Shown here in pieces: positions 3,092-49,563 of a stretch of 64,000 bases of DNA. Source of the stretch: a virus; the IMG/VR virus record IMGVR_UViG_3300005466_000026, positions 1 to 64,000 of that record; one strand, 5' to 3'. The position numbers and the translations under genes are program-made. Positions within the stretch are counted from its first letter, which is position 1, and the number at the start of each line of letters is the position of its first letter. The notes below the pieces were generated by a model. That model had not been told where the DNA came from. It did not search any database and saw only the letters and a program-made list of their open reading frames with translations.

Positions 3092-3736
3092 TCAAGACAT
3101 TCCTAGTAGAACTCTGTGACGCCGAAGAATGTTCTCGACGCCGTATGGCAGTGCGCTGGATATCGTCCCGGCGACCTGCGACTCTCTGTACTCGTATAGA
3201 TCGGCCAGTATCAACTTGACTGCGGCCTTGATGTCCTCCGGAACAGCGTTCGTCGGGGGTGAGTCTGGGAACAGATAACCAGCGCGAAATCGCACGCGAA
3301 CTGAGTTGATCGCGACTATCGTAGCTGGCCAGCTAGTGATGCCCGCAGGAACGACCCATCCCGGCTCGCTCGCGTCGTCCACGAAGTAGTCCGCTGGATC
3401 CATTATCTGCTCGTCGCCGTTCGCGTCGTCGTAGGCGATCTGCGTGATGCCGATGAGAGGAGGCTTGGGTATCTGGATGGCCAGCGCAGACTGCGAGTTG
3501 AAGCAGCGAGTCTGAACGAAGCACGAGCTGTTAGATCCAGGAAACTCGTCCAGCACCAGATCCCACGTCTGGTCTATGAGTGCTCTGCCAGTCCATCCCT
3601 CTACCTTGCCTATGGCCGCGTCTATGAGAGCGTTGATGATGTCGTCGTCGTCGGTGTGCGTGACCCGCAGATGCTTCTTCGCCTCTGTGAGAGTCACTGC
3701 CTTGACGGCAGGCTGAGATATGAGCTTCAGTCCCAT
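3092..3736 (-). CDS. Head-tail connector protein, HK97 gp6-like
   Basis: About 214 residues from the ATG at 3736 (GAGAG just upstream); the longer in-frame start lies inside the collagen-like gene. The N-terminus has the gp6/DUF3168-style helical signature: VTLTEAKKHLRVTH, then DDDIINALIDAAIGKVEGWTG. The C-terminus has VPEDIKAAVKLILADLYEYRES, also typical of phage gp6-like head-tail connectors. In HK97-type phages this protein forms the ring under the portal. Its position after the portal and capsid genes agrees. Confidence 0.85.
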   Translation of the reverse strand: MGLKLISQPAVKAVTLTEAKKHLRVTHTDDDDIINALIDAAIGKVEGWTGRALIDQTWDLVLDEFPGSNSSCFVQTRCFNSQSALAIQIPKPPLIGITQIAYDDANGDEQIMDPADYFVDDASEPGWVVPAGITSWPATIVAINSVRVRFRAGYLFPDSPPTNAVPEDIKAAVKLILADLYEYRESQVAGTISSALPYGVENILRRHRVLLGMS

Positions 3737-3741
3737 CTCTC

Positions 3742-5289
3742 TTACCCCTTGTCCCTGCCGTCTCTGCCGCGCTTCGTAGCGAGCTGCCATCCGCTGTCAG
3801 CTGTCCCAGGCTGCGCGTCCGTGTCCCTGAAGGCGTGCCACACGTTTCCGTCGCGCGTCACGCAGTCGCCGTTCTTGTACGTCTGTCCAGACTTCCACAC
3901 GCCCTGATAGAGCATGACTGGATAACTGATGGTGAACTCCTTCTTGTTCTCTCCCCTGAAGAAGCGAAGGATCAGATCCCTGGATCCCTCCACCGTGACG
4001 ACCTCCAGATCGTCGAACCCGACGCCGTCGAGACCGTCCCTTCCGTCTTTTCCGTCCTTAGGAATGGGTATCTCTGCGACAGCCGCAGCGACAAGAGCCT
4101 TGATCGCGTCCTTGTCAAGCCCGTCTCGACCCACCACGACACCCGCCTTAGAAATTCGACCGTCGTTAAAGATGCAATTAAGAACACCGTCGCGATCAAT
4201 ACTAAAAGACACGACGTGAGGAGTAGGAGGCAGCTCACTGACCACATCACGAACGGCAGCGTCAACGATGCTGCGAACCTGATCCAGAGAAACGCTCTCG
4301 CCAGGAGCTCCATCAGTGCCATCGCGGCCATTCTGTCCGTCCTTCCCGGGTTCTCCGTCCTTGCCATCCTTCGGCTTGGGCAGCTCGTCGACGTACTTTC
4401 TCAGTCCTAGAGCCTCTGCAGTCACGTAGCTCTCGACCGCGTATAGAATCTGCTCTGTGACCTTCTCCATGTCGACTACGCCGTCCTTGCCATCTGCGCC
4501 GTCTCGGCCGTCGGCGCCGTTCAGCACCGGGAACCTCTCGAAGTACGCAAGAACAGCACCACGAGCCAGCGTCTCCAGCTCCTCCTTGGTCGGCGTCGCG
4601 CCGTCCTTTCCGTCAATACCGTCTCGGCCCGGGATGCCCGGCTCACCCTTCTCGCCCGCGGGAGCAGGGTTCATCGAGAGATACTCTGTGGTCGCTATGG
4701 TCAGTATCTCCTTCAGCTTGTCGTAGTCTACGTCCCTGCCGTTCTCGCCGTCTCTGCCGTCCTTCGGAGCAGGTATCATGGAGACGACCTTCGCGACTAT
4801 CCCGTGCTCGTCCAGCGCCTTCACTACGTCGTCGACACTCGGAGGCTGGAACCGTTGAACCAGAATCTCGACCGCGTTATAGACTGCGTCCATGTCGCAG
4901 TGCCTGCCGTCCTTGCCGTCGACGCCGTCTCGGCCGTCCTTGCCGTCCGTGCCGTCCCTGCCCTTGAGCTCGACCATCCTGCCGTTGATGATCGCCTGAA
5001 CCTGATCGCCGCCGTAGCCGTAGAACGTGACGCCGTCACCGAAGTCCTCGATGTCGCGCCAAGTGATCTTGACAGGCTCGCTCGGCTGCTGCGCCGTCGC
5101 CGCGCTTATCGCGCCCTCTATCATGATCTGCGCGTCGTCCTCGTCGATGAGAGGACGCATCTCGAGAGCGCGAAGCTGACTCTCCAGCGCGTTAATCTTC
5201 GTCAGGAGAGGAGCCGTCGCGAGCTTAACCTGCTCGAACACGAAGGCGCCGACAGCCCTGAAGAACTCCGCCTGCTCGTTAGGCTGCAT
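3742..5289 (-). CDS. Collagen-like repeat virion protein
   Basis: About 515 residues. The ATG at 5289 is preferred to the GTG at 5298 because AAAGG lies 8 bases upstream. The N-terminal 110 residues carry a helical segment and a small domain. The centre carries at least eight blocks of G-X-Y triplets (GRDG, GKDG, GQNG, GEPG) separated by helical spacers of about 40-60 residues. The C-terminal 60 residues (YQGVWKSGQTYKNGDCV, then VWHAF) resemble a carbohydrate-binding module of the CBM5/12 type. Collagen-like phage proteins are usually trimeric fibres. It overlaps the portal gene by 11 bp, so it is made with the head genes. Confidence 0.8.
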   Translation of the reverse strand: MQPNEQAEFFRAVGAFVFEQVKLATAPLLTKINALESQLRALEMRPLIDEDDAQIMIEGAISAATAQQPSEPVKITWRDIEDFGDGVTFYGYGGDQVQAIINGRMVELKGRDGTDGKDGRDGVDGKDGRHCDMDAVYNAVEILVQRFQPPSVDDVVKALDEHGIVAKVVSMIPAPKDGRDGENGRDVDYDKLKEILTIATTEYLSMNPAPAGEKGEPGIPGRDGIDGKDGATPTKEELETLARGAVLAYFERFPVLNGADGRDGADGKDGVVDMEKVTEQILYAVESYVTAEALGLRKYVDELPKPKDGKDGEPGKDGQNGRDGTDGAPGESVSLDQVRSIVDAAVRDVVSELPPTPHVVSFSIDRDGVLNCIFNDGRISKAGVVVGRDGLDKDAIKALVAAAVAEIPIPKDGKDGRDGLDGVGFDDLEVVTVEGSRDLILRFFRGENKKEFTISYPVMLYQGVWKSGQTYKNGDCVTRDGNVWHAFRDTDAQPGTADSGWQLATKRGRDGRDKG

Positions 5290-6697
5290 CTGAGACACCT
5301 TTCCGCATACCTTCCATCGCCGACTCGAAGGTCACCGGAGGTGGAGGCAACAATTTTTGAGGTGGAGGTGCCTCAACTTGCGCAGGAGGCTTGGCGGTCC
5401 CTGGAGCAGTAGGTGGCTTCGCGGCGAAAGGATCTTCCTTGCTGTCGCGCTTGTCCAGCGCGGCGAGGCTGAAGTTCTGCTGCTGCAGATACGGCGTCTG
5501 GCCGCCCTTGACAGGCTTCAGATTCATCTTGCGTCGCGCCTCGTTGGGCGCGAGGATGCCTCTGTTGACACCTTCTCCGTACGTCTTGAACTGCGTGGCG
5601 GTGTCCATTCGCAGCAGGTCGTCGAGATCGAACTCGGTGCCGGAGTCCTGGTTCGCCGTCACCAGTCCCAGGCCGTTGTCGAGAACAGACTCTACACCCT
5701 CGATCAGCGCCTGCAGACACTGCGAGTAGTACATCTGATAGAGAGCCTCCACGTTGCTGTAGCTCGGGGTCGGCCCGACACCGACCATGAAGCCCGGAAC
5801 GTGAAACGCGGAGCAGACCTGCTCGCTCGACATCTTGAGCTGATCGATGAGCTGCGCGTCCACCGCGCTGATGGTCATCTTCTCATACTTCAGTCCGTCG
5901 CCGAGAACCGCGACCTTTCCAGCGTTCGCGCCGGTGTAGTTGTTGTCCCAGTGATCCTTCAGTCTCTTCGCAGTGTCCGGATCGATGAGACCCGGTGCCG
6001 TGAGAATTCCACCGGGCCGACTTCCGTTCTGGAAGAACCGCGTCGAGTTCTCCTGAATGCGAAGACCCTGCACGGCGGCCAATCCACACGCGGTGATGGG
6101 ACTGACGCCGCACAGCGGATGATACAGAGGAACATGAACGTCGTGGAAGATCTCGGACGCCGGAACCACGACCTGATCCTTGTCGACGCCCGCGAGATTG
6201 CTGGTCGAGAGCTGATAATAGACTTCTCCGTCCGACGTTATCAGCACCTTCGTCAGCATGGGATCCAGCACGTAGCCCGCGACCACCACGTCGCGATTGT
6301 CTCGCTCCTTGAGAACGTAGGTATTGCCGTGAATCATCTTCGAGGAGATCCACGACTCCACGAACTTCTGCCGCGTCTGATATCTGTTCGGCTTGCGAAG
6401 AAAGGGACTGAACGAGGAGTTCTCAGCCGGAGCCCAGACTCCGTCCCTGTCCCTCTCGACGTACCGAAGCTGCAGCTTGCCGATGTCGCTGGCGATCAGC
6501 GTGATGCAGGAGTAGACCGTGCTAAACGTCAGCACGTTCTCGAGACGAACCTCTATGTTCCGCTGCCACGCTCCCGTGAACGGCTCCATGATCGTCCCGA
6601 ACGACCAAGCTCCCCATCGGCTGGGAGACTGGACGTACGAGAGGCCGGGGGGAGGAGCGGCCTTTCGGACCGAGAGATCGTACCCGAGTATCCTCAT
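5279..6697 (-). CDS. Portal protein, HK97 family
   Basis: 472 residues, normal for HK97-type portals. Recognisable segments are STVYSCITLIASDIGKL near residue 60, a long stem region, and the conserved SNVEALYQMYYSQCLQALIE helix, followed by RGILAPNEARRKMNL. The last 70 residues are Pro/Ala-rich and probably disordered. The portal forms the dodecameric DNA entry ring and docks the terminase. The start overlaps the stop of the upstream small gene by 4 bp (ATGA). Confidence 0.95.
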   Translation of the reverse strand: MRILGYDLSVRKAAPPPGLSYVQSPSRWGAWSFGTIMEPFTGAWQRNIEVRLENVLTFSTVYSCITLIASDIGKLQLRYVERDRDGVWAPAENSSFSPFLRKPNRYQTRQKFVESWISSKMIHGNTYVLKERDNRDVVVAGYVLDPMLTKVLITSDGEVYYQLSTSNLAGVDKDQVVVPASEIFHDVHVPLYHPLCGVSPITACGLAAVQGLRIQENSTRFFQNGSRPGGILTAPGLIDPDTAKRLKDHWDNNYTGANAGKVAVLGDGLKYEKMTISAVDAQLIDQLKMSSEQVCSAFHVPGFMVGVGPTPSYSNVEALYQMYYSQCLQALIEGVESVLDNGLGLVTANQDSGTEFDLDDLLRMDTATQFKTYGEGVNRGILAPNEARRKMNLKPVKGGQTPYLQQQNFSLAALDKRDSKEDPFAAKPPTAPGTAKPPAQVEAPPPQKLLPPPPVTFESAMEGMRKGVSDAA

Positions 6698-9748: not shown

Positions 9749-11317
9749 TCACACGAACATCATCTGGAACTCTTTGGGCTTCTCCTCGGTCGTAGCCTCC
9801 GCTATCGCGCTCGCCATCGCGAGCGAGACCATGCCGTCGATCCGACCTCGGCTCTTCGCCTTGCTCAGCTTCCGGTTCCCCGCGGGATCCTTCTGCACGA
9901 CGGCGTTGTGAGCACACATGTTTAGGACCGGGTTCTTCCCGTGAGCCAGCTTCTTGTTCAGCACGAGAGCCTCGAGACTCCGCAGGGCCGGGGACATGGA
10001 CTGGAAGCCCTGACCGAACTCCTCGAACAGGGTCTCCAGCTCCTTCTCGGTGAAGCCGCACTTGAGGAGCCAAGGCTTCAGGTGCCTGTAGTTCCAGCGG
10101 TCGAACGCTATCTTCTTCACCTTGAGCTCGGTACATATCTCGCGAAGACGCTGCGCGACGTACTCGTACTCGACGCTCTTTCCGGGCGTGAGCTCGATGT
10201 ATCCCTCCTTCGCCCAGACGTCGTACTGCACGCGGTCAAGGCGAGAGCGCTCGGCTATCCCCTCCTCGGGGAGCCAGAAGTAGCAGTGGACCTGCCACAC
10301 ACCTCGCACCATGAACAAGAGCACGAGCGCGGTCAGGTCGCTCGTGGCCGAGAGATCCAGTCCCGCGAACACCAGCTGACCAGCGTACTCTTCCAGGCTG
10401 ACGGGCTCCGCGCCGCACGCCTCCCAGGTGATTCTCGAGACGAAGGGGGATGTGGACTCCACCCTCTGATTGAGGATCAGGTTGCGATAGTCGGCCTCCA
10501 GGCTCGGCATCCGCTTGGCGTCGGCCGCCATGCGGAGAACCTCCTTCGTGTTCATGAACTCGTCGTAGGCGGGGTTCGCCTGCTTGATGGTCGTGAGCGC
10601 GAAGGGGTCCGCCTCCGTGTCGGCGGTGTAGAGCTCGACGATCGTGCAGGGGTCGTTGTCCTCCAGCGCGTCGTCGATGAGAATGCTGAGCAGGTCGTTG
10701 TCCGTCGGCGCCTGCGTCGAGATTATGATAGTGAGCGGCTCCTCCTGCGCGGCGCTCGCCGTCTCCAGCGCGGAGTAGAGCTCGCTCTTCGGTCCGCGAG
10801 CCTGCCCCAGCTCGTCGTGAATGGTGAGCGCTGGGCTCAGGCCGAAGCTCGTCTTGACCTCCGCCGAGAGCGCTCGGTACTTGGTCCCGCGCTCGGGGCA
10901 GAGTATCTGCTTGACCGTGTCGCGAACCACGCAGAACGGCGACAGCTCGGGCGACATGCGTATGATCTTGGCCGCGAGCTCGAAGATGACCGCCGCCTGC
11001 TCCTTGGACTGAGCCGTGGAGTACTGCTGCGAGTTCTGCACGGCCTCCGGACCCACGATGTGCAGCAGCAGGATGAAGGCCGAGAGAGCCGTCTTGGCGT
11101 TCTTGCGAGCAACGCTGAATATCGCTCGGCGGGTGCCCGCCGGATTGTCGTATATCTTGATCATGAAGCGCCGCTGGAACTGCGACAGCTTCACCTTCTT
11201 GCCCACCAGCTTCCCCTCGGGGATGCGGCAGTTCTCCTCGATCCAGCGGATGTTCCGCTCGGCGCGGGTCTCCGTCCGCGTTGGCCTCTTAGCCTTAGTC
11301 TTCGGCTTCGTCGTCAT
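9749..11317 (-). CDS. terL: Terminase large subunit (HK97-type)
   Basis: 522 residues. The ATPase domain has an atypical Walker A, SVARKNAKT (68-76), and a Walker B-like ALTIHDELGQ near 170. The nuclease domain carries acidic motifs VFAGLDLSATSDL near 305 and a C-terminal SRGRIDGMVSLAMA. These match the Terminase_1/HK97 family that packages DNA into proheads. The gene overlaps the small-terminase gene by 23 bp. Confidence 0.95.
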   Translation of the reverse strand: MTTKPKTKAKRPTRTETRAERNIRWIEENCRIPEGKLVGKKVKLSQFQRRFMIKIYDNPAGTRRAIFSVARKNAKTALSAFILLLHIVGPEAVQNSQQYSTAQSKEQAAVIFELAAKIIRMSPELSPFCVVRDTVKQILCPERGTKYRALSAEVKTSFGLSPALTIHDELGQARGPKSELYSALETASAAQEEPLTIIISTQAPTDNDLLSILIDDALEDNDPCTIVELYTADTEADPFALTTIKQANPAYDEFMNTKEVLRMAADAKRMPSLEADYRNLILNQRVESTSPFVSRITWEACGAEPVSLEEYAGQLVFAGLDLSATSDLTALVLLFMVRGVWQVHCYFWLPEEGIAERSRLDRVQYDVWAKEGYIELTPGKSVEYEYVAQRLREICTELKVKKIAFDRWNYRHLKPWLLKCGFTEKELETLFEEFGQGFQSMSPALRSLEALVLNKKLAHGKNPVLNMCAHNAVVQKDPAGNRKLSKAKSRGRIDGMVSLAMASAIAEATTEEKPKEFQMMFV

Positions 11318-11720
11318 CCGCGACCGGCTTGGCGTCCATGTCCCAGGGCTTCACGACCGCCGACTTGGCGTGCTTCGACTTCTTTCTGTCGAGCGTGGAC
11401 TGCTGCGTGAGCCTCATCTTGGTGGCGAGAGTAGCCACCATCTTGGTCTCCTTGAGCTCGAGAGCGTAGAGCGCCTGATCGACCCGCTGCTCGGTCCTGA
11501 TCTTCTTGGCGATGGACCTAGCCCTCATCACGTGGCTGCAGTACTGCTCGAGAATGGCCAGCGTCTCGGGTCTGAACCAGTCTGCGGGCAGCGCCTCCAC
11601 GGTCTGTCTCCATATCAACGCCTCGTCCTCCCCCATGCGACTGGGTGGTGAAGGTCTCGCGACCCCCATCCCCTCTATCACCTTCAGGGACTGCCTGCCT
11701 CTGCCGTGTAGGACGCTCAT
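11295..11720 (-). CDS. terS: Terminase small subunit, P27-like
   Basis: 141 residues, helical and basic: EALIWRQTVEALPADWFRPETLAILEQYC. This is the P27-type small terminase pattern (a W..T...LP helix pair). The C-terminus is charged, ending DDDEAED. It recognises packaging DNA and stimulates TerL in related phages. The downstream overlap with terL supports the call. Confidence 0.85.
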   Translation of the reverse strand: MSVLHGRGRQSLKVIEGMGVARPSPPSRMGEDEALIWRQTVEALPADWFRPETLAILEQYCSHVMRARSIAKKIRTEQRVDQALYALELKETKMVATLATKMRLTQQSTLDRKKSKHAKSAVVKPWDMDAKPVADDDEAED

Positions 11721-11899: not shown

Positions 11900-12187
11900 T
11901 CATTTTTGAAAATCGTTTCGTATCGGCCAACCGTCTAGTCCTATCATCTCTCCTCGTCCTCCCTTCTCGAGAGACTGAGCAACTGAGTTATGACACGACT
12001 CACACAGAGACTGCAGAGGAGACGAGCAGAAGATGTTCCAGTTGCCGTTGTGCTGCTGCAGGTGGTGTGCCACGGTAGCGACGACGACCTCTCCTCGTGC
12101 ACCATGCATCTCACACAAGGGATGCTGTGCCAGTTGATGCTTGCGGCGTGCTCTCCACAGAGCAGTACTATAGAAGCGATGGGCCAC
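11900..12187 (-). CDS. HNH endonuclease
   Basis: 95 residues from a GTG at 12187, with AGGAG 8-9 bases upstream. The pattern is HPLCEMH, then VAHHLQQHNGNW, then LQSLCESCHNS, which fits an HNH nuclease with a Cys-based zinc site. HNH proteins next to terminase genes assist DNA cleavage during packaging in HK97-like phages. The position directly upstream of terS fits that role. Confidence 0.85.
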   Translation of the reverse strand: MAHRFYSTALWRARRKHQLAQHPLCEMHGARGEVVVATVAHHLQQHNGNWNIFCSSPLQSLCESCHNSVAQSLEKGGRGEMIGLDGWPIRNDFQK

Positions 12188-12275: not shown

Positions 12276-12755
12276 TTAGGCTACGCGCACGCTGGTCTGG
12301 TCTATCTCGACAGCGAGAGACCTATTCATCATGCTCAGTAGAACGCGACATCGGTCCCGTGCGGTGAGCTGCTCTACCACACCGAGACTATCCTTGAACG
12401 CACCATGCACCACTACGACAGTGTCGCCTACAGCAGCAGGCTTCTGCAACACGATAAGACCCCGACGGTCTTCTTTGGCCCTCAGGGTCTCTATGTCTCT
12501 GTCGCTCATGCGGGTAGGAACACCGTCGCAGAAGAAGAGCTTCCTTATTCCGCGAGTGTTGACTAAGCGCTCCCAGCCGTCTCTCACCATCACGAAGATA
12601 TATCCGGGAAACAGGTACTCGCGTCTCTCGGTAGTCTTCCTACGCACCGCAATCTGCGGTAGATAGAATTGAAATCCCTGACGCTCTATGTGATGTGCTG
12701 CTCTCTGCTCTTCGCAGAACTTCGTGGCTGCAGCCGTCCAGTATTTTGAAACCAA
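12276..12755 (-). CDS. NusG/RfaH-like transcription factor
   Basis: 159 residues from a TTG start with GAGG 5 bases upstream. Residues 5-95 match the NGN domain: KYWTAAATKFCEEQRAAHH, RREYLFPGYIFVMV and TRGIRKLFF. Residues 108-159 form a KOW domain: VGDTVVVVHGAFKDSLG and VRVA. NusG paralogues ride on RNA polymerase and suppress pausing or termination. As first gene of the leftward late block it probably regulates that transcript, possibly as a processive antiterminator. It lacks the linker and size of the housekeeping NusG. Confidence 0.85.
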   Translation of the reverse strand: MVSKYWTAAATKFCEEQRAAHHIERQGFQFYLPQIAVRRKTTERREYLFPGYIFVMVRDGWERLVNTRGIRKLFFCDGVPTRMSDRDIETLRAKEDRRGLIVLQKPAAVGDTVVVVHGAFKDSLGVVEQLTARDRCRVLLSMMNRSLAVEIDQTSVRVA

Positions 12756-12870
12756 GACTTCCTCACCGTCCAGAAGAAGTTACTTGGGTCTATCCGAATA
12801 GCGTGCTTCCTTTGATTTGGCAAGGACCGGGGGTTGAATACCCTCTCCTATAGCTGTCCAATGCCGCCTA

Positions 12871-13102
12871 TCACTTTATCAGCCCTATACACTTTTTGCC
12901 GCTTAAAGTAAGATGAGAATCCCCACTGTTTCTCAAAAAAGTGATAAGCTGATAAAGTGCTTATAACTACTAAAGAAACGATCTAAAAAATCTGATAGCT
13001 GGCTGATAGCGAAGTGATAGGTGATAGCGACCATTACCTCCATCACGAGCAAAATATTTTAATGATCTCAAGCACTTTATCACTTTATCACTTTATCAGC
13101 CC
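12871..13102. repeat. Iteron-like repeat cluster (possible origin or operator array)
   Basis: CACTTTATCAGCCC occurs twice exactly (12872-12885 and 13089-13102). The second copy ends three tandem CACTTTAT units (13073-13096). The inverse, GCTGATAAAGTG, is at 12948-12959. Between them are CTGATAGC at 12992-12999 and 13003-13010 and tandem GTGATAG at 13014-13027. Direct repeats in an AT-rich intergenic region between divergent blocks are usual for replication origins or repressor operators; the sequence cannot tell which. Confidence 0.65.
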
Positions 13103-13190
13103 ATGACCTCAGAAAGTCGGAAAAACGAAAATTGAAAACTCGTACAGTAGGACCTATTGGCAAGAAGTCGGACATCCTGCTCGGTGTCAT

Positions 13191-13219
13191 TTGACGTACC
13201 AGACGTCGCCATATATTTT
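13191..13219 (+). promoter_or_regulatory. Sigma70-like promoter of rightward block
   Basis: TTGACG (13191-13196), a 17-base spacer and TATTTT (13214-13219), about 115 bp before the first plus-strand gene. A weaker upstream pair, TTGAAA (13132-13137) and TATTGG (13155-13160), also has 17-base spacing. No other promoter is evident for the long coupled gene series that follows. Confidence 0.55.
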
Positions 13220-13334
13220 TGAACATGGAGACACTTTGGGCTTGCGGCTCACAAATCCCCCGGTGCAGGCTGCGGCGGCCTAGGACCTACCAGTAGTCGC
13301 GTATCAAGCCTACCGGCAGTAGAGGGAGCCACAG

Positions 13335-13823
13335 ATGCTAGAGAGATATCGTCACGTCATATCACGAGTACGTCCAGGACTTCAAGTCGAGATGCTGCGC
13401 TACTTCGTCGAGCGCGGTCTGGTGCCGGGGGACGCTCCCGGTCACAGCTTCTACGACGTGCTGAGAAGGGCGAGGCTGATGCAGGCCGACGTCGTTCTCT
13501 GCGCCCTCAGGATCAACAGCACCAGCAGCCTCGCGCTCGCCGAGAAGCTGGTAGGCAAGCGCATTCACGTTTGTCCGCCGATGCTCATCAGGTGGACCTC
13601 GCCGGTCAAGGCCACCAGACGGTCGGGGGACGACCGCGTGGTCACCCACGTTCGCAAGCCTAGATCAACAGAGAAGGGTCGCACGCGTCTTCTCTCGGCG
13701 TCCATGTACGACAGGATGGCCAGAGCGCAGACCGGGATGACCGTCTCGACCCTGCTGGCCCGAGGCCTTCGTCGCAGAGACATTCGCATCGCCGTCAAGC
13801 GCGGCTATCTCAGGATAGCGTAG
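13335..13823 (+). CDS. Hypothetical protein, first gene of rightward block
   Basis: 162 residues, basic and mostly helical. GGGAG precedes the ATG. The last 40 residues (MTVSTLLARGLRRRDIRIAVKRGYL) look like a small helix-turn-helix, so DNA binding and early regulation are possible. I do not recognise the family. Confidence 0.6.
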   Translation: MLERYRHVISRVRPGLQVEMLRYFVERGLVPGDAPGHSFYDVLRRARLMQADVVLCALRINSTSSLALAEKLVGKRIHVCPPMLIRWTSPVKATRRSGDDRVVTHVRKPRSTEKGRTRLLSASMYDRMARAQTGMTVSTLLARGLRRRDIRIAVKRGYLRIA

Positions 13824-18501: not shown

Positions 18502-18743
18502 GGAAGAAGTCAGCGACGAAGAAGATCAACGCGGTGATGAACACCTTCAAGGCGCGAGCCGACTCGGATCTGCTGCTGTGCAGAGCCGTGGTGGCTGCGC
18601 ACAACGAGCTGATCCAGGCGATAGCCAGAGCAACCTCGGCCGGACTTCGCGTCGAGGCCGGGCGCGACCTGGGAACGCCGATCCAGGTCTACAGACCGAT
18701 AACGCAGGAGACGCACGACAGACTGTCCAAGCTGGCCACGTGA
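18498..18743 (+). CDS. Hypothetical basic helical protein
   Basis: 81 residues with a Lys/Arg-rich N-terminus and two long helices. ATGA-coupled to the preceding gene. No family recognised. Confidence 0.55.
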   Translation: MRKKSATKKINAVMNTFKARADSDLLLCRAVVAAHNELIQAIARATSAGLRVEAGRDLGTPIQVYRPITQETHDRLSKLAT

Positions 18744-18756
18744 GGAGACTGGAGCC

Positions 18757-18939
18757 ATGAAGAAGCTGAGATCTGTTCTCAGAAGGATCCTGTGCAGTCA
18801 TCGCTGGAGCGCGTGGAGGAGGGACGATCCGTACCTGCGAGCAGTAGACTACTTCGACATGCTCCGGCTGGCGAGCGAGGGTCCTCGTCTGGTCTCCACC
18901 TGCGAGAAGTGCAGCAAGACGAAGACGAGGCGAACATGA
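18757..18939 (+). CDS. Basic mini-protein with C-terminal CxxC
   Basis: 60 residues: MKKLRSVLRRILCSHRWSAW, then CEKCSKTKTRR. A C/H plus CxxC pattern could bind one zinc ion. GGAG is upstream of the ATG. Function unknown. Confidence 0.55.
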   Translation: MKKLRSVLRRILCSHRWSAWRRDDPYLRAVDYFDMLRLASEGPRLVSTCEKCSKTKTRRT

Positions 18940-19205
18940 AGACCATGATCACCATCATAGCTGGCGACGGACGCAGACACGCCGCTGCCAGCTTCGAGGT
19001 AGATCTCAGATGGCTGGCGCTCAAGCCGGAGGAGGTCGACAGAATGCCGCGCTTCCGCTGTCGCTATCTTTGCAACATAATGATGAGCGATCCTCTCGGT
19101 CACTTTCAGTACTTCGCCGAGAACAGAGGACTGAAGGGCAGACCGAAGAGTCGCGGCAGCAGACTAGCGACCAGACGCAGACGAACGATAGCCAAGAGGA
19201 GATGA
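18936..19205 (+). CDS. Hypothetical basic protein
   Basis: 89 residues. The N-terminal two thirds looks folded (MKTMITIIAGDGRRHAAASF), and the last 25 residues are strongly basic, so nucleic acid binding is possible. ATGA overlap with the upstream gene. Confidence 0.55.
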   Translation: MKTMITIIAGDGRRHAAASFEVDLRWLALKPEEVDRMPRFRCRYLCNIMMSDPLGHFQYFAENRGLKGRPKSRGSRLATRRRRTIAKRR

Positions 19206-19208
19206 GCC

Positions 19209-19730
19209 ATGACGCTAGAGATCCCGACCCGACGCGGCTTCGTCGGCGGACTGCTGGGACTTATCGCCGCTCCCGCGATAGTCAGAGCCAGCAGTCTGAT
19301 GCAGATACGAGGAGAGCCGCTGATACTCACTAGTCCACTGCCGCTGATCGGCGAGCAGACCAGCCAGTTCATGGTCACTGAGCTGCAGATGAGCAGTCTG
19401 CTCGACAGCATGTCTCAGTTCAGGGCCAAGCTGGTGGAGGTCACCGGAGTAGACAGAGCTATGCTGCAGCCGGTCAAGCGCGTCGACATCTTCGACAGCA
19501 TGTCCTTCACGCACGTGATGAAGAGAGGCACCGTCAGCTCCCACGGCTGCCACGGAGACTATCGCAGAACGCAGCTCATCGACGCTCCGAGGCGCGAGGT
19601 CACCGTGGAGGGGAGCTGCGAGCTGCTCGGGATGCTCCGAGCGGGCGACGTGGTGACCGTGGACAATCTTCCGGGCGGAGAGACCCGATACACGATCCCC
19701 CGGTCAGCCGGGGGGAGGAGGGAGACGTGA
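19209..19730 (+). CDS. Tat-signal exported protein
   Basis: 173 residues. TRRGFVGGLLGLIAAPAI at 7-24, followed by VRASS, is a twin-arginine signal with a probable cleavage site after about residue 27. The mature part is unassigned; it contains one Cys pair (HGCHG and GSCEL) and ends in a small beta domain. Export as a folded protein would place it in the periplasm. The 3-prime end carries a 7-bp GC hairpin (19697-19714). Confidence 0.6.
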   Translation: MTLEIPTRRGFVGGLLGLIAAPAIVRASSLMQIRGEPLILTSPLPLIGEQTSQFMVTELQMSSLLDSMSQFRAKLVEVTGVDRAMLQPVKRVDIFDSMSFTHVMKRGTVSSHGCHGDYRRTQLIDAPRREVTVEGSCELLGMLRAGDVVTVDNLPGGETRYTIPRSAGGRRET

Positions 19731-24496: not shown

Positions 24497-25263
24497 CTCA
24501 TCAGGTCAAGAAGGCCGTCTGCTCCGTCTGCATGAAGGATCTAGACCGCAGCGTGCCGATAGACGCGGAGGAGATTACGTGCTTCTTCTGCTGCCAGATA
24601 CGCGGCGACCCGATAGAGATCGCGAAGAAGTACTCCAAGGGTGGTCGCGCTCGTCTCCAGTGCACGGTGGACGCAATTCGCAGCGCGAACCACCTCAAGC
24701 TGGACGGCGACTTCGTGGAGTGCGGAGTCTGGATGGGCGGTCACGTCATGCTGGCTAGGATGCTCAGCCCTGATCGGCGATGCTGGCTCTACGACACGTT
24801 CGAGGGGATGCCTCCCCCGGGACCGCACGACATCAAGCACAACAAGCCGGGGGACAATCCGTACCGTGCGTCTGCGCACATGGCCCGCAAGAACGGACTG
24901 CCGATGTCGAGAGCTCCCATAGATCAGGTTATGGACGCGTTCCGGAGCGAGGGGCTGATGGACGACAAGAAGATGAGATTCGTGCCCGGACTGGTGGAGG
25001 CGACGCTGCTGATGCCGGAGAACCTCCCGGACAAGATCTCGGTGCTTCGCCTGGACACGGACTGGCACGACAGCACCAAGATGGAGCTGGAGGTTCTGTA
25101 TCCTAGGCTGCAGCGCGGCGGCTATCTGATCATCGACGACTTCGGGCACTGGGAGGGCGCGAGGAAGGCGACGAAGGACTACTTCGCGGCGCACAAGATG
25201 GACTTCGGTCGCCTGCGTCACGTCGACTACACCTGCGTCTACTGGATCAAGGGAGAGACGTGA
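24493..25263 (+). CDS. TylF/MycF-like O-methyltransferase
   Basis: 256 residues. The first 45 carry two CxxC pairs (CSVCM and CFFCC), an added zinc-ribbon-like head. Residues 60-256 match the TylF/macrocin O-methyltransferase family: GDFVECGVWMGGHVMLA (SAM site), CWLYDTFEGMPPPG, ISVLRLDTDWHDSTKMELE and GGYLIIDDFGHWEGARKA. The DTD and DDFG acidic residues are the expected metal/catalytic positions. The family methylates sugars in antibiotics and surface glycans; in a phage, glycan modification is a reasonable inference. Confidence 0.85.
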   Translation: MTHQVKKAVCSVCMKDLDRSVPIDAEEITCFFCCQIRGDPIEIAKKYSKGGRARLQCTVDAIRSANHLKLDGDFVECGVWMGGHVMLARMLSPDRRCWLYDTFEGMPPPGPHDIKHNKPGDNPYRASAHMARKNGLPMSRAPIDQVMDAFRSEGLMDDKKMRFVPGLVEATLLMPENLPDKISVLRLDTDWHDSTKMELEVLYPRLQRGGYLIIDDFGHWEGARKATKDYFAAHKMDFGRLRHVDYTCVYWIKGET

Positions 25264-25406
25264 TGAGCAGCACCTTCGTCTGGATCGCGACTGGAATGTA
25301 CGTCGCGCAGGCTTTGGTGTATGCTCTGGAGGGCAGATATCCGCACGTCGCTATCATGGCCGGTTACGTTCTGGCCAACGTCGGGATAATCTGGAGCGTC
25401 AGCTAG
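25263..25406 (+). CDS. Two-helix membrane mini-protein
   Basis: 47 residues: MSSTFVWIATGMYVAQALVY, then AIMAGYVLANVGIIW. TGATG coupling upstream. Function unknown. Confidence 0.5.
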   Translation: MSSTFVWIATGMYVAQALVYALEGRYPHVAIMAGYVLANVGIIWSVS

Positions 25407-30327: not shown

Positions 30328-31029
30328 TCAGGACGTCTTGACCAGACCCATGCGCAGTAGAGTGCGGATGGTGCCGGTCTTGACCTTCTTGCTCCTGAGC
30401 GTCTTGACGCTCTGGCCGCTGTTCGTGCGAACGCGCTCGGTGCGCTCCCACTTGCCGGTCTTCTCACGGAACGGATTGGCCTTGCCTGCCCACGTGATCT
30501 TCGTGTCGTCCTCCATCTTGACGCGGGGACCAGAGGACTTCTTCGCTGCGGTCTTGGACTTCTTGGTGGCTTTCTTTGGCATGGTCTTGTCTTCCTTCTG
30601 CTTTGACTTGGTTGACTTGGATGGCTTCACGAGATCGCTGATGCGCTCGTGCAGTCGGGTGCACGCCTTCTTGCCGGTCGACAGATCAACGAACATGGTG
30701 ACCGGCTTCACGTGCTGAAGCCCGACGTCGACTGCCGTCGGAACCATGTCGTTGTAGAGCTTGACTGCGGCGTCGACGGTGGTCAGCTCCTTGAGCATCG
30801 CGCCGAAGCCCTCTGCCTTCTCACCGTTTCGCTTTTCGTCCCTTGCCCGCCTTGCCTCCGGATCCGACTTTCGCTTCGCCTTGGGCGCGGCGCTTGGCTC
30901 GGGCTTCTCTGCCGCTGCTTCCGGCTTTGGAGTTAGCGGTACTTCGTTCTTCTTGGCCTCCTTCGGGTTCGGCTCGGCCTTGACCTGAGCCTCCTCCGTC
31001 TTCGCCTCCGTCTTCTGGTCCTGCGTCAT
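30328..31029 (-). CDS. Lys/Ala-rich basic protein
   Basis: 233 residues. The first 75 are a low-complexity Lys/Glu/Pro/Ala tail. A middle helical part has a folded look (LTTVDAAVKLYNDMVPTAVD). The last 80 are strongly basic (MPKKATKKSKTAAKKSSG), H1-histone-like. DNA or nucleoid binding is likely. It overlaps the upstream gene by 209 bp. Confidence 0.6.
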   Translation of the reverse strand: MTQDQKTEAKTEEAQVKAEPNPKEAKKNEVPLTPKPEAAAEKPEPSAAPKAKRKSDPEARRARDEKRNGEKAEGFGAMLKELTTVDAAVKLYNDMVPTAVDVGLQHVKPVTMFVDLSTGKKACTRLHERISDLVKPSKSTKSKQKEDKTMPKKATKKSKTAAKKSSGPRVKMEDDTKITWAGKANPFREKTGKWERTERVRTNSGQSVKTLRSKKVKTGTIRTLLRMGLVKTS

Positions 31030-31561
31030 TCTCGTGGCTTCCTTCTCTGAGTGTCGCGTAGCCCGATGCTATCGCGTTCTTCAGCGTGACCGGATTTCCT
31101 CCTGCTTCAAGAAACTCGGCCACGGTCTTCTCGTGGTGCTGCACGAGCAGCTCCCACCTCTTGTGAGGCGCGGTGCCCTCCTTCTTGGGGTTCTCACCCT
31201 CGAAGAGGATCACCGCGGTCTTCTGGTCAGCGGCTCCGTCTGCGGAGATCCGCTTCTCCTTCTTCTCCGGCTCCTTGATCCGAGCCTCGTACTTCTCGCG
31301 CTGGGAGCTGATCGACTCCTCGACGTCTCTGTCAAACCTACGAACGCCGTCCGGCACGAGCCAGTGAGACATGAACTTGCCGCTCTTAATGCGCGCGGCG
31401 ATGAACTGTCTCAGGCCCTCCGGCTCCACGCGATCGAGGGCGATCTCCCACTGCTCCCTAGCTGGAGCGGCGGGCGTCTCGCCCTCGGACTTCTCTGCGA
31501 CTCGCGCTGGCCTGTTCTTGACCAGCAGAAAGTCGGGTATGCTCAGGTCATCGCTTCTCAT
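30821..31561 (-). CDS. Hypothetical protein, C-terminus read through next gene
   Basis: 246 residues. The first 175 look coding and charged (EQWEIALDRVEPEGLRQFIA, ENPKKEG, a helix HHEKTVAEFLEAGG). The last 70 residues are Gly/Arg/Glu low complexity and overlap the next gene by 209 bp. The real stop might be elsewhere (frameshift), or the overlap is tolerated because GC-rich frames lack stops. Confidence 0.5.
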   Translation of the reverse strand: MRSDDLSIPDFLLVKNRPARVAEKSEGETPAAPAREQWEIALDRVEPEGLRQFIAARIKSGKFMSHWLVPDGVRRFDRDVEESISSQREKYEARIKEPEKKEKRISADGAADQKTAVILFEGENPKKEGTAPHKRWELLVQHHEKTVAEFLEAGGNPVTLKNAIASGYATLREGSHENDAGPEDGGEDGGGSGQGRAEPEGGQEERSTANSKAGSSGREARAKRRAQGEAKVGSGGKAGKGRKAKR

Positions 31562-36667: not shown

Positions 36668-37059
36668 ATTAGTCCCTCCACCTTCATCTGCTTGCGGCGC
36701 TCCTCGAAGTCCATGCAGAACGCGCAGGACTTCTTCGCCTCATCCTCGGTGCGCTCGCGACCGTCGTGGTCGCGGCCCATGTACGTCTGCCAGTGCGGAC
36801 GGTTCATGTCCTGGAGATCCCAGTAAGTCGGCATGTCGCCGTCCTTCTCGGGTACGATCTGGAACTGATCGTTGGATAGTGTCTTCTTGCCGTAGGCCTC
36901 AGCCTCCTGTGGCGTGGCGAACCGCTGGAAGCGGTCGCAGCGACTCCAGTAGGCTCGGCCGCGATGACCCTCGGCCAGCAGGTAGATGTGATACGGCACT
37001 GGATACTGACCCCACTGCGGAGCGTAGTCGGTGGTCGACATTGAGCGAATGAGATACAT
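36664..37059 (-). CDS. Hypothetical protein
   Basis: 131 residues from ATG 37059, which has GGAGAAG upstream; longer in-frame starts lack this. Beta-rich, aromatic first half (PYHIYLLAEGHRGRAYW). The C-terminus contains CAFCMDF. No family recognised. Confidence 0.55.
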   Translation of the reverse strand: MYLIRSMSTTDYAPQWGQYPVPYHIYLLAEGHRGRAYWSRCDRFQRFATPQEAEAYGKKTLSNDQFQIVPEKDGDMPTYWDLQDMNRPHWQTYMGRDHDGRERTEDEAKKSCAFCMDFEERRKQMKVEGLI

Positions 37060-37070
37060 TGTGCTTCTCC

Positions 37071-37250
37071 TTATTCTGCGTAGCAGATCAGTTGACCGGA
37101 ACGGTAGAAGACGCCTACCTTGTAGGCCTCGTCTACCACGATTATCTTCCACTCGTCGCACGGTCGGCAGTTGTCTCGGCCGTGCACCATCGCCCAGCGA
37201 TGGGCCTCGTCGACTGTCTTGAACGACGGGCTCACGTCCTTGGTAGTCAT
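37071..37250 (-). CDS. Hypothetical protein
   Basis: 59 residues: TVDEAHRWAMVHGRDNCRPC, then a beta pair (WKIIVVDEAYKVGVFYRSG). GGAGAAG is upstream. Function unknown. Confidence 0.5.
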   Translation of the reverse strand: MTTKDVSPSFKTVDEAHRWAMVHGRDNCRPCDEWKIIVVDEAYKVGVFYRSGQLICYAE

Positions 37251-40623: not shown

Positions 40624-41582
40624 GTCTCCGCCTCCCACGCGCGGTCTATCAGGTGATGCTTCTCGTCGCTCGGGTTCCACTCGTAGAGTGTAGCGACCCA
40701 CTCCTGCATCTTCTCCCACTCGTGACGATTGGCTTCTTCCTGAAACTTCGGGAAGTACTCTCTGGCGCCGAGAGGACACAGAGCGATCTTGACGACGTAC
40801 AAGTTACCCTGCGTCGGCTTGAAGTCGTACAGACTGCGGATGAGCGCGGGCGGCTCTCCGAACTTCGGATCGCACACGCTGGCCTCTAGAACCCACAGAG
40901 GACCGACTCTTCTGAACCACGTCTCGATGTGCATCTGCGTGAATACGTTGTTGATCACGTCGTCGGTCATCACCCACGGAGCCAGCGACTCGTGCTGCCC
41001 GCCGTCCTCAGGAGTACCGATGACTCTCTTGTCGTCGAACGGTGGTTTAGAGTACGCGTCCACCGACTCTACGCTGGTGTCGCTGTTCCAGACCTCGCTC
41101 ATCCTGCGAGCCTCCTCCGCAGTCAGCCGAGGCGCGACGATGATCTTCTTCTCTCGCTCCGGCAGCACCGCGCCGCGCGAGATCATCTCGGCCTCGATCA
41201 GCGTGGCGTAGCGCCGCAGGTCCCGGAGGCAGGCTAGAACGCTGCCGTCCTTGCCGCTCGGGTCGTCGTGTATCTTCTCGAAGACGTCCTCCTCGCTCAG
41301 CTTCTGCACCATCCACTCGGCCAGCTCGTGAGACAGCGTGTACTCCTTGTCCGGGTCCGTAGCTACGTCCTGAAGGTCCTCTCGGCTGAAGCTCTCCGGC
41401 CACGGCACGGAGGCCATCATGTTCAGCAGTCGGTCCATGTTCCTGCGAAACATGAACCACGCGCTTCGTCCACCGGCCATCTTCCAGCTTCCCTGATAGG
41501 TGGCCTCCTTCTCCCTGAGCAGCATGACGTCGCTGTCGGCGACGCGCTGCAGATGCTCCAGATGCTTCATGTCGTGGCTCAT
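40620..41582 (-). CDS. Hypothetical protein
   Basis: 320 residues from the ATG at 41582, chosen over an upstream ATG because it forms the ATGA overlap with the HD gene. Helical, acidic, Trp-rich (AWFMFRRNMDRLLNMM). No recognised motif. Coupled to the polymerase by TTGA. Confidence 0.6.
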   Translation of the reverse strand: MSHDMKHLEHLQRVADSDVMLLREKEATYQGSWKMAGGRSAWFMFRRNMDRLLNMMASVPWPESFSREDLQDVATDPDKEYTLSHELAEWMVQKLSEEDVFEKIHDDPSGKDGSVLACLRDLRRYATLIEAEMISRGAVLPEREKKIIVAPRLTAEEARRMSEVWNSDTSVESVDAYSKPPFDDKRVIGTPEDGGQHESLAPWVMTDDVINNVFTQMHIETWFRRVGPLWVLEASVCDPKFGEPPALIRSLYDFKPTQGNLYVVKIALCPLGAREYFPKFQEEANRHEWEKMQEWVATLYEWNPSDEKHHLIDRAWEAET

Positions 41583-42085
41583 GATATCTTCACTCCCTTC
41601 ATCCACTCGTCGACCTTGACGTACTGATACAGCTCGTCCGCCATCTTGAGTGCGATCTCTCTGGTGTCGCGCATGGGTATTGCGGCGTACTGATTACCCA
41701 TCATGAACTCGTGAAAGCAGAACTCGTACATCTCCAGCAGGTCGCAGATCTTGAACCGCTTCCACTCGTCCTCTCGCATCTGCGGCAGCTCGATCTGCTG
41801 ATGACCCAGACCCAGTCTCTCGGCCTCGTTGACAGCCGCGCCGTAGCCCTCGACTCGGTGCTTGCCGCCGAACGGAACGTCGCCGGCGAACTGCTCTCCC
41901 ATGTCGTGATGCAGGCAGTAGTAGAGAACCTCCGCGCGAGGAATACCGAACACCTCGCAGTAGATCTGCGCGACGCGACCCTGATGCTCGATCACGTTCG
42001 GCTTTCGCAGAGTCGGCCAAGTGTGCCATCGCGCCACCTGACCGGCTAGATGCCTTGATCTGTAGACTTGATCTCTAGTAACCAT
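41579..42085 (-). CDS. HD-domain nucleotide phosphohydrolase (YfbR-like)
   Basis: 168 residues. VIEHQGRVAQIYCEVFG (His34), then YYCLHHDMGEQFAGDVP (His60-Asp61, Glu64) and a later Asp-containing helix match HD-domain dNMP phosphohydrolases of the YfbR/5'-deoxynucleotidase type. It probably removes a phosphate from a dNTP or dNMP to shape the phage nucleotide pool, which fits its place between the ThyA homologue and the polymerase. DatZ of 2-aminoadenine phages is also an HD protein, but no PurZ homologue is visible here. Confidence 0.8.
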   Translation of the reverse strand: MVTRDQVYRSRHLAGQVARWHTWPTLRKPNVIEHQGRVAQIYCEVFGIPRAEVLYYCLHHDMGEQFAGDVPFGGKHRVEGYGAAVNEAERLGLGHQQIELPQMREDEWKRFKICDLLEMYEFCFHEFMMGNQYAAIPMRDTREIALKMADELYQYVKVDEWMKGVKIS

Positions 42086-43237
42086 TCACATCCTCCTCGT
42101 CATCCACTCGGTGCACGCCACGCGCCAGTCCTCTGACTGGATCTCGTTGGCTGCAGCCACCGCTCTTATCTTCTGGCCGTCTCTCCACAGACGGTGCGAC
42201 CGAACAACCGGCTGAGCAACCTCGCAGAACCAGTCGTTCTCGCAATGTCTCAGAGGTACGTCGCTCTCTGTTCGGTAGCACTCGTCGTGCCACGACATGA
42301 ACTCGATGACGTCCTCGTCGGCCTTCTCTCCGACCGTGAATACCGGGCGCGTCTTCAGCCGAAGAGAGAAGTACCTGTCGTCGTGCAGGGCGCCGACTAT
42401 GCTGCTCTCCTCCTTGGCCATTCGCTTGGTCATAACGCCGAGCATCGTCTCGTACATGTGAAAGTTGTTCGAGAGAACGTACAGATCACCCATCGCCACG
42501 CCGACGCGAGCAGCCAGATACTCCTGCAGAAAGCTGAAGTGCACCGAGTTCGCGCCGTAGAGTCCCCAGACGATGTCGTTACTGCGGCAGCACACCGTCA
42601 TGTCCAGAACTCTGTTCCCCTTAGATATGACCACGCCGTCCGGCCAGTGATCTGGACCGTCTCCGCGCACTCTGAGATAGATGTGCGTGTTGCACGGTCT
42701 GTCCTTCCACTCGCCGGTGAGGTCCAGAGCGCCGACCTCCTGCTCGCCGACGTTGCCGTTACCCAGACTAACGGGCAGCGTGACGCTGGAGCAGTCCCAC
42801 ATCTGGATGACGCACTGACGCGTCCCCGGGTCCTTGATCAGCCGATCCACGACCGCTCCCAGCTGATCAAGTCCGAAGCGGAAGCGCCATCGGTGTCCGT
42901 ACGCTCCGTGGATCTGACCCCCGGCCTCCCAGTTCGCGCTCCCGCTGGCGCTCTCGGCGAACCGCTGGCCGAAGTCCGTCACGTAGTGGTTCAGCGTCTC
43001 GGCGTCGTCCCTGCCAGCCAGCATCCAGATGGCCTCCACGACGTGAAAGAATGGATTGGCATCTCTCACCTTGCTGAAGACCACGCGCTCCCACGGTCTC
43101 TTGAGGCGCGTGACGACGGGACCGGGGGCGACTAGGCAGGGACCCGCCCGAGTCTTCTCGAGCAGGCCGGAGTTGATTAGCAGGTGCACTCCCTTCGGGA
43201 GTGCCGCCGCTGAGTTCGTGGTGTCGATGACGTGCAT
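42086..43237 (-). CDS. Thymidylate synthase/dUMP hydroxymethylase homologue
   Basis: 383 residues, longer than ThyA (264). ThyA-type catalytic region: DRPCNTHIYLRVRG with the nucleophile candidate Cys182 (neighbour Asn where ThyA has His), CCRSNDIVWGLYGANSVHF with Arg218-Ser219, Asp221 and Asn230 (equivalent to the Asn that selects dUMP; Asp in dCMP hydroxymethylases), and FHMY with His260/Tyr262. So it should act on dUMP with a folate cofactor. Whether the product is dTMP or 5-hydroxymethyl-dUMP cannot be read from sequence. The neighbourhood of kinase, radical SAM and glycosyltransferase genes favours hydroxymethylation. Confidence 0.85.
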   Translation of the reverse strand: MHVIDTTNSAAALPKGVHLLINSGLLEKTRAGPCLVAPGPVVTRLKRPWERVVFSKVRDANPFFHVVEAIWMLAGRDDAETLNHYVTDFGQRFAESASGSANWEAGGQIHGAYGHRWRFRFGLDQLGAVVDRLIKDPGTRQCVIQMWDCSSVTLPVSLGNGNVGEQEVGALDLTGEWKDRPCNTHIYLRVRGDGPDHWPDGVVISKGNRVLDMTVCCRSNDIVWGLYGANSVHFSFLQEYLAARVGVAMGDLYVLSNNFHMYETMLGVMTKRMAKEESSIVGALHDDRYFSLRLKTRPVFTVGEKADEDVIEFMSWHDECYRTESDVPLRHCENDWFCEVAQPVVRSHRLWRDGQKIRAVAAANEIQSEDWRVACTEWMTRRM

Positions 43238-47717: not shown

Positions 47718-47912
47718 CTATCTCCTCCCCTTGCTGTCGAAGACTACTCTTCCGGTTGATCTCTCGAAGCACGTGACCGCCGCGCTGCTGTTTCTAGCCA
47801 TCGCGCCCACGAACTCCTTGCAGGCTTCCTTGCTGTCGAACTTGACCTGCTTCGGCTCCTCGCATCCGAGGAAGCTGCAGAACGTTATGAGTACGAAGAA
47901 TGGACTTTCCAT
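47718..47912 (-). CDS. Small putative lipoprotein
   Basis: 64 residues. The first 18 (MESPFFVLITFCSFLGC) are hydrophobic with a possible lipobox LGC, then a compact charged domain (KVKF..KEACKEFVGAM-like spacing). It overlaps the homing-endonuclease gene by 28 bp. Possible exclusion protein; unproven. Confidence 0.45.
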   Translation of the reverse strand: MESPFFVLITFCSFLGCEEPKQVKFDSKEACKEFVGAMARNSSAAVTCFERSTGRVVFDSKGRR

Positions 47913-48691
47913 GTCACTTCTCCTAATTGCTGCTTCATCTTCATGCCTTTATTCCACGGTTCTCGTCCTTTCATTGCGGCACTCATTTTTGCACGAGACT
48001 CAAGAGTGTGCTTCTTACCTTTTCTCTTCGACGGTTTTCCTTTCTGTGCTGCGCTCATCTTAGCTCGAGACTCAGCTGTATGTTTCCGACCTGCTATCCA
48101 GGGAATTTGACCCTTATGAACATCACTCATCTTTTTTCGGTGCTCAGGATTTTCCCACGCCTTCTTGATTAAATCTTTCAATATGATTGAGCCTCTCTCA
48201 CGATAATCAGGATCTTTCCATCTTTCTTTTGACTCTCTTCTCATTTTATTCGCTTGGCGCTCTCGATACTCTGGATCTTTCCACTGCTCTTTTAATTGCC
48301 TTGTCATAGAAGCACTCCTACGCTCACGAAATTCAGAGGACTCCCATAGCTTCACGACTGCTAGTCTCATTGCTTCACGTGAAGCTTCTCTGGAGATAGC
48401 GTATTGCCAGCTAGAGCATGGTCTGCCTTGAGTCATTCTACTGAGTGCACTCACCATCTGATGATGTGCTCTGCCATCAAGAATAAATTTAGTCAAGAGC
48501 CAGTGTGCCAGAAAATGTTCTCGATAGGTCAGTGAGACCAAGTTCTCTGAGCTGTTATACCAGCTCGGATCTCCGCCGAAACTTCTAGGGTTTCGGTGAT
48601 GTCTCTCGTAACGTACTCCTGGTTCGCGCTCGCGGCTCGCGGCGCGATCCATGATCTGCGTGTACCAGAGACGATACTTCTCAGTGCTCAC
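47885..48691 (-). CDS. HNH homing endonuclease with NUMOD3-like repeats
   Basis: 268 residues from a GTG at 48691 that overlaps the preceding stop (GTGA). RYERHHRNPRSFGGDPSWYN, then NLVSLTYREHFLAHWLL, is an HNH nuclease of the homing type. Four or five repeats (WKDPEYRERQ, WKDPDYRERG, AWENPEHRKKM, then HTAESRAKMS and HTLESRAKMS) are NUMOD3-like DNA-binding modules. The gene is clearly richer in A/T than its neighbours, which marks recent insertion of a selfish element into the modification cluster. Confidence 0.88.
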   Translation of the reverse strand: MSTEKYRLWYTQIMDRAASREREPGVRYERHHRNPRSFGGDPSWYNSSENLVSLTYREHFLAHWLLTKFILDGRAHHQMVSALSRMTQGRPCSSWQYAISREASREAMRLAVVKLWESSEFRERRSASMTRQLKEQWKDPEYRERQANKMRRESKERWKDPDYRERGSIILKDLIKKAWENPEHRKKMSDVHKGQIPWIAGRKHTAESRAKMSAAQKGKPSKRKGKKHTLESRAKMSAAMKGREPWNKGMKMKQQLGEVTWKVHSSYS

Positions 48692-49563
48692 GCGAACACT
48701 CCTCTTGGTCTGCCCTCGCCGTTCCTGACTCTCTCGTACTTGTCGAACTCGCAGAGCGTGTGCTCGACGTCTCGCATCTCCCACTTGGGCCACTGCCTCG
48801 GCCAGTTGCCCGGACTGCAACTGGCCGCGAGGATCAGCTGCATCTCCTCCAGCATCTTGGGCACCCTGACGCTCTTATCCTTCTTGTTCCTGCCGTGTAT
48901 CCGGTTCAGTCCGCGCCTCGCCCCCGGTCCCACGTTGCACCAGCTCATGATGTCGTTCGCGTCGCAGAGAAGGTTGGTGTGCCGCAGGTCCGTGACTATC
49001 TCGTACGAGTGAAATGTGCCGAGCCACGGCTGCATCTTGAACCAGAGCCAAGCCGTCTGCAGAGACATCTTCTCCTTAATCATCTGCTTGGCAGCGTCCC
49101 TCCATCCGCTCTCCTCTCTGAAGTTCTTCAGGATCTCCAGGATCCCGTCCAGCTTGGTGAAGCCGGGGGGAGAGGTTATGATGTACGCTCCGGTGACGTA
49201 GGGGCCGTCACCGCAGATCGCCTTGACGTCCTTCTTCATGCGTCGCAGGTCTCCGGTCTGCAGGAACACCGCGAAGGCGTTGTTCTTGTCGAAGTCCAGG
49301 TGATTGAAGATGGCCTCTCCCGTGCTGATCCTGTTGAACATGCGGAACACGACCGTGGCCAGTAGCACGTCCGGCGAGTCTCTCATCTCCTCCCTCACGT
49401 TGCGTCGGAACCAGTCAGTGGTCTTGTCCAGCTCCCGGAAGACGTTCGTGAACCTGTACTTCTGCAGGATCGGGTCCCTCGTCAGGGACGACTTCCCCTC
49501 CAGACGGTTCAGGTACACCTGATGTCGCTGCCTCGCGTAGTTGAAGAAGGACTGCATCGTCAT
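48688..49563 (-). CDS. HMUDK-helical/aGPT-Pplase-like base hypermodification protein
   Basis: 291 residues. The N-terminus (SFFNYARQRHQVYLNRLEG, then LTRDPILQKYRFTNVFREL and DKTTDWF) has the signature of the helical partner domain of 5-hmdU DNA kinases and of alpha-glutamyl/putrescinyl-thymine pyrophosphorylases, a DNA-glycosylase-related family. I am unsure which clade it belongs to. Helix-hairpin-helix-like sequence follows (NRIHGRNKK region). With the P-loop kinase at 43971-44519 it forms the diagnostic pair of thymidine hypermodification. Confidence 0.8.
   Translation of the reverse strand: MTMQSFFNYARQRHQVYLNRLEGKSSLTRDPILQKYRFTNVFRELDKTTDWFRRNVREEMRDSPDVLLATVVFRMFNRISTGEAIFNHLDFDKNNAFAVFLQTGDLRRMKKDVKAICGDGPYVTGAYIITSPPGFTKLDGILEILKNFREESGWRDAAKQMIKEKMSLQTAWLWFKMQPWLGTFHSYEIVTDLRHTNLLCDANDIMSWCNVGPGARRGLNRIHGRNKKDKSVRVPKMLEEMQLILAASCSPGNWPRQWPKWEMRDVEHTLCEFDKYERVRNGEGRPRGVFA

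Follow-up and report, generated by a model that had tools for sequence, protein, structure and literature searches.

What is the function of a dense cluster of short repeats lying in the AT-rich gap between two divergent gene blocks of an environmental virus? The window, that is, the whole stretch of DNA analysed, comprises bases 1–64,000 of an IMG/VR virus record that is 85,774 bp long and has no end repeats. Its virus carries a tailed-phage gene set, with terminase, a fused protease/major head protein, family A DNA polymerase and an archaeo-eukaryotic-type primase, together with a UvrD helicase, a SNF2-type helicase, RtcB and a GcrA-like protein, the last of which hints at an alphaproteobacterial host. 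Leftward from the repeats, the genes run RfaH/NusG-like antiterminator, HNH endonuclease, terminase small subunit (TerS), terminase large subunit (TerL) and head genes, while the rightward block consists of ~40 small genes. The gap is flanked by the following features:

9749–11317, minus strand: TerL
11295–11720, minus strand: TerS
11900–12187, minus strand: HNH endonuclease
12276–12755, minus strand: RfaH/NusG-like antiterminator heading the leftward late block (assigned to Pfam NusG, with RfaH as the best PDB match)
12795–12823, minus strand: predicted leftward promoter, TTGCCA-17-TATTCG, a weak consensus match scoring below the shuffle median, 46 bp left of the array
13191–13219, plus strand: predicted rightward promoter, TTGACG-17-TATTTT, a consensus match with a good score, 93 bp right of the array
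13335–13823, plus strand: first gene of the rightward block, with no assigned function; its C-terminal ~50 residues belong to a small domain family recurring in these phages

A NusG-like gene followed by ORFs sized like terminase genes was also seen in contigs L027, L032 and L037, which suggests that the position of the phage antiterminator recurs across these contigs and this phage. Elsewhere in the window, a protein with a 5-hmdU DNA kinase helical domain (48688–49563), a thymidylate synthase homolog (42086–43237) and a nucleotidase that is probably YfbR-like (41579–42085) suggest thymidine hypermodification of the phage DNA. The window also holds a low-GC stretch at 47885–48820 with repeats of 63-bp period, which may be a homing-type endonuclease gene, either intact or degenerate, and a 515-residue ORF (3742–5289) with collagen-like repeats at 4340–4973.

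Within 230 bp of the gap, the five-base core TGATA/TATCA occurs 11 times, and most copies form direct repeats of 8 bp arranged in opposed groups. Counted by this core, the minus-strand sites lie at 12869, 12877, 13078, 13086 and 13094, and the plus-strand sites at 12942, 12950, 12993, 13004, 13015 and 13022. The half-sites are laid out as follows:

12866–13102, no strand: complete TGATA/TATCA array, with four groups totalling 11 half-sites
12869–12881, minus strand: half-site pair, 8 bp apart, TGATAAAGTGATA
12942–12954, plus strand: half-site pair, 8 bp apart, TGATAAGCTGATA
12993–13026, plus strand: four half-sites with spacings of 11, 11 and 7 bp that form the left arm of the convergent core
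13078–13098, minus strand: three half-sites at 8-bp intervals that form the right arm of this core, at a distance of 56 bp from the left arm

The repeats listed in the earlier note were all recovered, with CACTTTATCAGCCC present twice (12872–12885 and 13089–13102), three tandem copies of CACTTTAT at 13073, 13081 and 13089, the inverted GCTGATAAAGTG at 12948–12959, and TGATAGC at 12993, 13004 and 13022. The array contains 73 repeated 8-mer pairs, compared with 1.75 ± 1.74 in dinucleotide shuffles, and its repeat score was matched by none of 2,000 shuffles. Across the window, CACTTTATCA with at most one mismatch occurs nine times against 1.3 expected, and all five TGATA-N2/3-TGATA pairs in the 85.8-kb record fall inside the array (0.1 expected). 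The array is unique in the genome and is its densest non-coding repeat cluster. The description of the region as AT-rich and lying between divergent blocks also holds, since the array occupies the lowest-GC 200 bp of the record (35.5% against 60%) between the leftward and rightward genes.

Direct 8-bp repeats in the lowest-GC stretch of the genome are what an iteron origin would display, with the repeats serving as iterons for a phage initiator and the AT-rich stretch as an unwinding element; in other phages described below, G001, G002 and G006, an array also adjoins a replication gene. We nevertheless consider an origin unlikely. The GC-skew check that had been proposed for an origin gave a turn at the array, but overall skew tracks gene direction, and as third-codon-position skew is close to zero in every gene block, it provides no origin signal. 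The phage's own replication genes lie 25–45 kb from the array, and 12756–13334 contains no DnaA box, although not every phage origin needs one. There was also no match to the IHF site WATCARNNNNTTR.

The array contains a perfect 12-nt and a 92% 25-nt inverted repeat, which would permit two alternative folds in a leftward leader, pairing 13070–13102 with 12938–12962, or 12938–12962 with 12866–12885. Such a leader could act as an attenuator or as a recruitment site for the RfaH/NusG-like protein, whose gene lies directly downstream, and its predicted fold is more stable than expected (z = −2.4). However, the fold of a shorter leader is no more stable than those of shuffled sequences (z = −1.1), an Rfam search returned nothing beyond a spurious weak match, no ops-like element with fewer than four mismatches was found, and transcription from the candidate leftward promoter would start past the array. 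Control at the RNA level would also leave unexplained both the direct 8-bp repeats and the second array found at another junction in phage G002, and we regard it as very improbable.

To place the array in a wider context, we consider its recurrence in other phages, the present phage being denoted G000 in the array comparison; contig L006 represents this same phage. When viral contigs were scanned with CACTTTATCACTTTATCA, six matched, among them G001 and G002, which are distant relatives through their replication genes. G002 carries two arrays, each with groups 47 bp apart. The first (3438–3523) has an Sf6-type TerS gene leftward and early-type genes rightward, and the second (36922–37075) lies between the replication-gene operon and a SNF2-type helicase gene, a junction at which G001 also has an array. 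A degenerate scan added G008, which is near G002, and G006, where 17 half-sites at 18696–19226, including eight TGATAACGTGATA pairs within 530 bp, are flanked by terminase genes on one side and a DUF3854/DUF5906 gene on the other. Convergent pairs turned up in 18 contigs, namely G006, five members of the L226 group, five of the low-GC L230 group and seven apparently unrelated ones. The L226 group is one lineage in which TGATACAC repeats adjoin TerS; TGATA is kept and the spacer changed in it; L217 and L226 share the polymerase, the primase and both helicases at 33–36%. In L230, the array sits between the TerL block and a small HTH-like gene. These motif scans, although blind to gene content, recovered distant relatives of this phage's replication module.

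The architecture recurs along with the motif. Four arrays, namely that of G000, the two of G002 and part of the one in G006, place a plus-strand group of 8-bp repeats opposite one on the minus strand; their nearest sites are 56, 47, 47 and 46 bp apart, respectively, and their half-site consensus is [G/C]TGATA[A/G]. Distant phages with the array core typically have it flanked by terminase genes to one side and by other genes to the opposite side. Outward sigma70-like sites, identified as consensus matches, have predicted −35 elements 46 bp left and 93 bp right of the array in G000 and 49 bp left and 74 bp right of array 1 in G002, and in G001 the predicted −35 element of the helicase gene has a TATCA 2 bp away. 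We disregarded the scattered TGATA pairs of G007, as they resemble intergenic stop/start codons. In the genome collection, tandem matches were mostly simple repeats of Bacteroidetes and Phycisphaerae. Since 8-bp TGATA tandems can also be simple repeats in unrelated bacterial genomes, the motif alone is weak evidence. Tandem 8-bp repeats of TATCACNT are common in these two groups (genome contigs L082–L161). Because recurrence came from motif-based scans, the frequency of the array among phages cannot be estimated from it.

The arrangement in these phages also bears on packaging, for which the array would be a cosB- or pac-like site whose repeats are bound by TerS. It lies next to terminase genes, upstream of them in G000, G002, G006, the L226 group and probably the L230 group, and an HNH gene accompanies the terminase here, an adjacency typical of cos phages. 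In the window, however, TerS starts 1.1 kb from the array, and the second array of G001 and G002 is far from the terminase. Moreover, the motif does not track TerS type: it is common to phages with different TerS families (phrog_12559, Sf6-type PF20901 and phrog_51), while L014, whose TerS is Sf6-type like that of G002, has different repeats. The retention of the motif across TerS families, together with the L014 mismatch, argues against packaging, and the second G002 array, with the same layout at another divergent junction, speaks against both a single origin and a single packaging site. We judge a packaging function to be improbable.

Judged by flanking genes, L014 is the closest neighbour of this phage, with 46% identity over the alignment for the NusG-like protein and 53–54% for the first rightward gene. 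Its equivalent gap of 930 bp (4490–5419) is also rich in repeats, with none of 500 shuffles scoring as high, but the repeats differ from TGATA: they comprise a 9-bp GGTAC-type tandem, copies of GTCCCGATTGGAC exactly 42 bp apart plus inverted copies, and GCTACCCGTAGCAT twice. Among ten catalogued phages chosen by related primase/helicase genes rather than by motif, none had TGATA pairs, and of these ten, the five inspected in full had no equally strong array at a divergent gap; Dinoroseobacter phage R5C (KY606587) has a smaller set of AAGCGACT repeats in its divergent gap (25165–25386). The absence of a TGATA pair from all ten replication-gene relatives implies that the element is patchy and not a fixed part of the replication module.

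Taken together, these data are best explained by a multi-site operator array through which one regulator acts on divergent promoters, a reading that we consider probable. The sites are clustered between divergently transcribed blocks, as in an operator array, and since similar clusters hold the same kind of spot in distantly related phages, the array is most likely a docking array for a putative regulator of early and late genes. Two arrays of the same architecture in G002, each at a divergent junction, are as predicted for a regulator of several promoters. The earlier note had left the choice between origin and operator open; its operator alternative is supported by the outward promoter-like sites, the recurrence at divergent late/early junctions and the two arrays of G002, and its origin alternative gained no positive support.

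We propose that adjacent TGATA half-sites are occupied, in 8-bp steps, by one sequence-specific regulator that the phage itself probably encodes, and that the two opposed groups ~50 bp apart would enable its bound oligomers to pair or to form a loop. This complex would govern how expression is balanced between the leftward block, with its RfaH/NusG-like, HNH, terminase and head genes, and the rightward early-type block, the sign of regulation, like the looping, being putative. The array would be enhancer-like and would serve the two divergent promoters between which it lies in this tailed phage.

Which protein might bind the array? Pfam/PHROG scans of small window proteins returned no ribbon-helix-helix or other convincing regulator family; a WYL domain was matched once. 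The product of ORF 13335–13823 is not favoured as the binder, because its L014 homolog adjoins different repeats and G002, which has TGATA arrays, has a remote homolog only. Neither fold models of this protein nor those of its domain gave a significant PDB match; among viral proteins, Gp18 of phage PhiJL001 alone matched, and weakly. The small domain family is found in G000, G002 and G006, and weakly in ORF 13335 and L014; the domain is predicted with high confidence to fold as strand–three helices–strand, with insignificant winged-helix-like matches. This domain of ~55 residues (NPKKxGSxAxxR...GMTxxxxxAxGL) is repeated within and between phages, some copies having lysine-rich tails:

30821–31561, window: ~55-residue domain copies
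4162, 5157, 14302 and 31346, G002: domain copies
50386, G006: domain copy

The 8-bp steps invite comparison with partition sites and ribbon-helix-helix operators. The omega heptad reads WATCACW, its ATCAC core is that of the array, and TATCACT fits it, with five matches. A plasmid-style partition site for a small omega- or ParR-like protein is extremely unlikely all the same, as the matches are spaced mostly by 8 bp and not as contiguous 7-bp heptads, no ParA- or omega-like protein was found in the Pfam/PHROG scans of small window proteins, and Pfam scans of the same proteins, one list giving the best 25 of 27 families, showed no ribbon-helix-helix protein nearby. Partition sites are often arrays of short repeats close to a promoter (PMC5016525). 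Omega/MetJ-type ribbon-helix-helix operators resemble the array in their short tandem half-sites at 7–8 bp, but here spacings of 7, 8 and 11 bp are mixed, the convergent groups are long-range and the window revealed no such protein.

We found no matching operator in the literature. Like the lambda-type multi-site operators of temperate phages, the array has clustered sites between outward, here predicted, promoters and separates two transcription blocks; it differs in consisting of short direct repeats in opposed groups rather than 17-bp dyads, and no adjacent CI/Cro pair or integrase was seen. In mycobacteriophage cluster A, operator/stoperator motifs vary between related phages (PMC6550527), as they do between G000 and L014, whereas stoperators are 20–30 single sites spread across the genome (PMC6550527) and the sites described here are clustered at one or two junctions.

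A broader possibility, which we put forward tentatively and hold to be doubtful, is that the array is a horizontally shared phage control element, new to description, in which convergent 8-bp TGATA groups at the terminase/early junction are read by a single regulator family that has kept its core preference across phages whose terminases are unrelated, the low-GC L230 group among them; in close relatives, L014 for example, the array would have been exchanged for a different motif in the manner of immunity regions.

The array is probably the main early/late switch of a group of environmental phages that apparently use a phage-borne RfaH-like factor, and its DNA could be used as bait to find the regulator. 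Should a single regulator family recognise this core in several unrelated lineages, the array would represent a portable control module, traceable by sequence alone.
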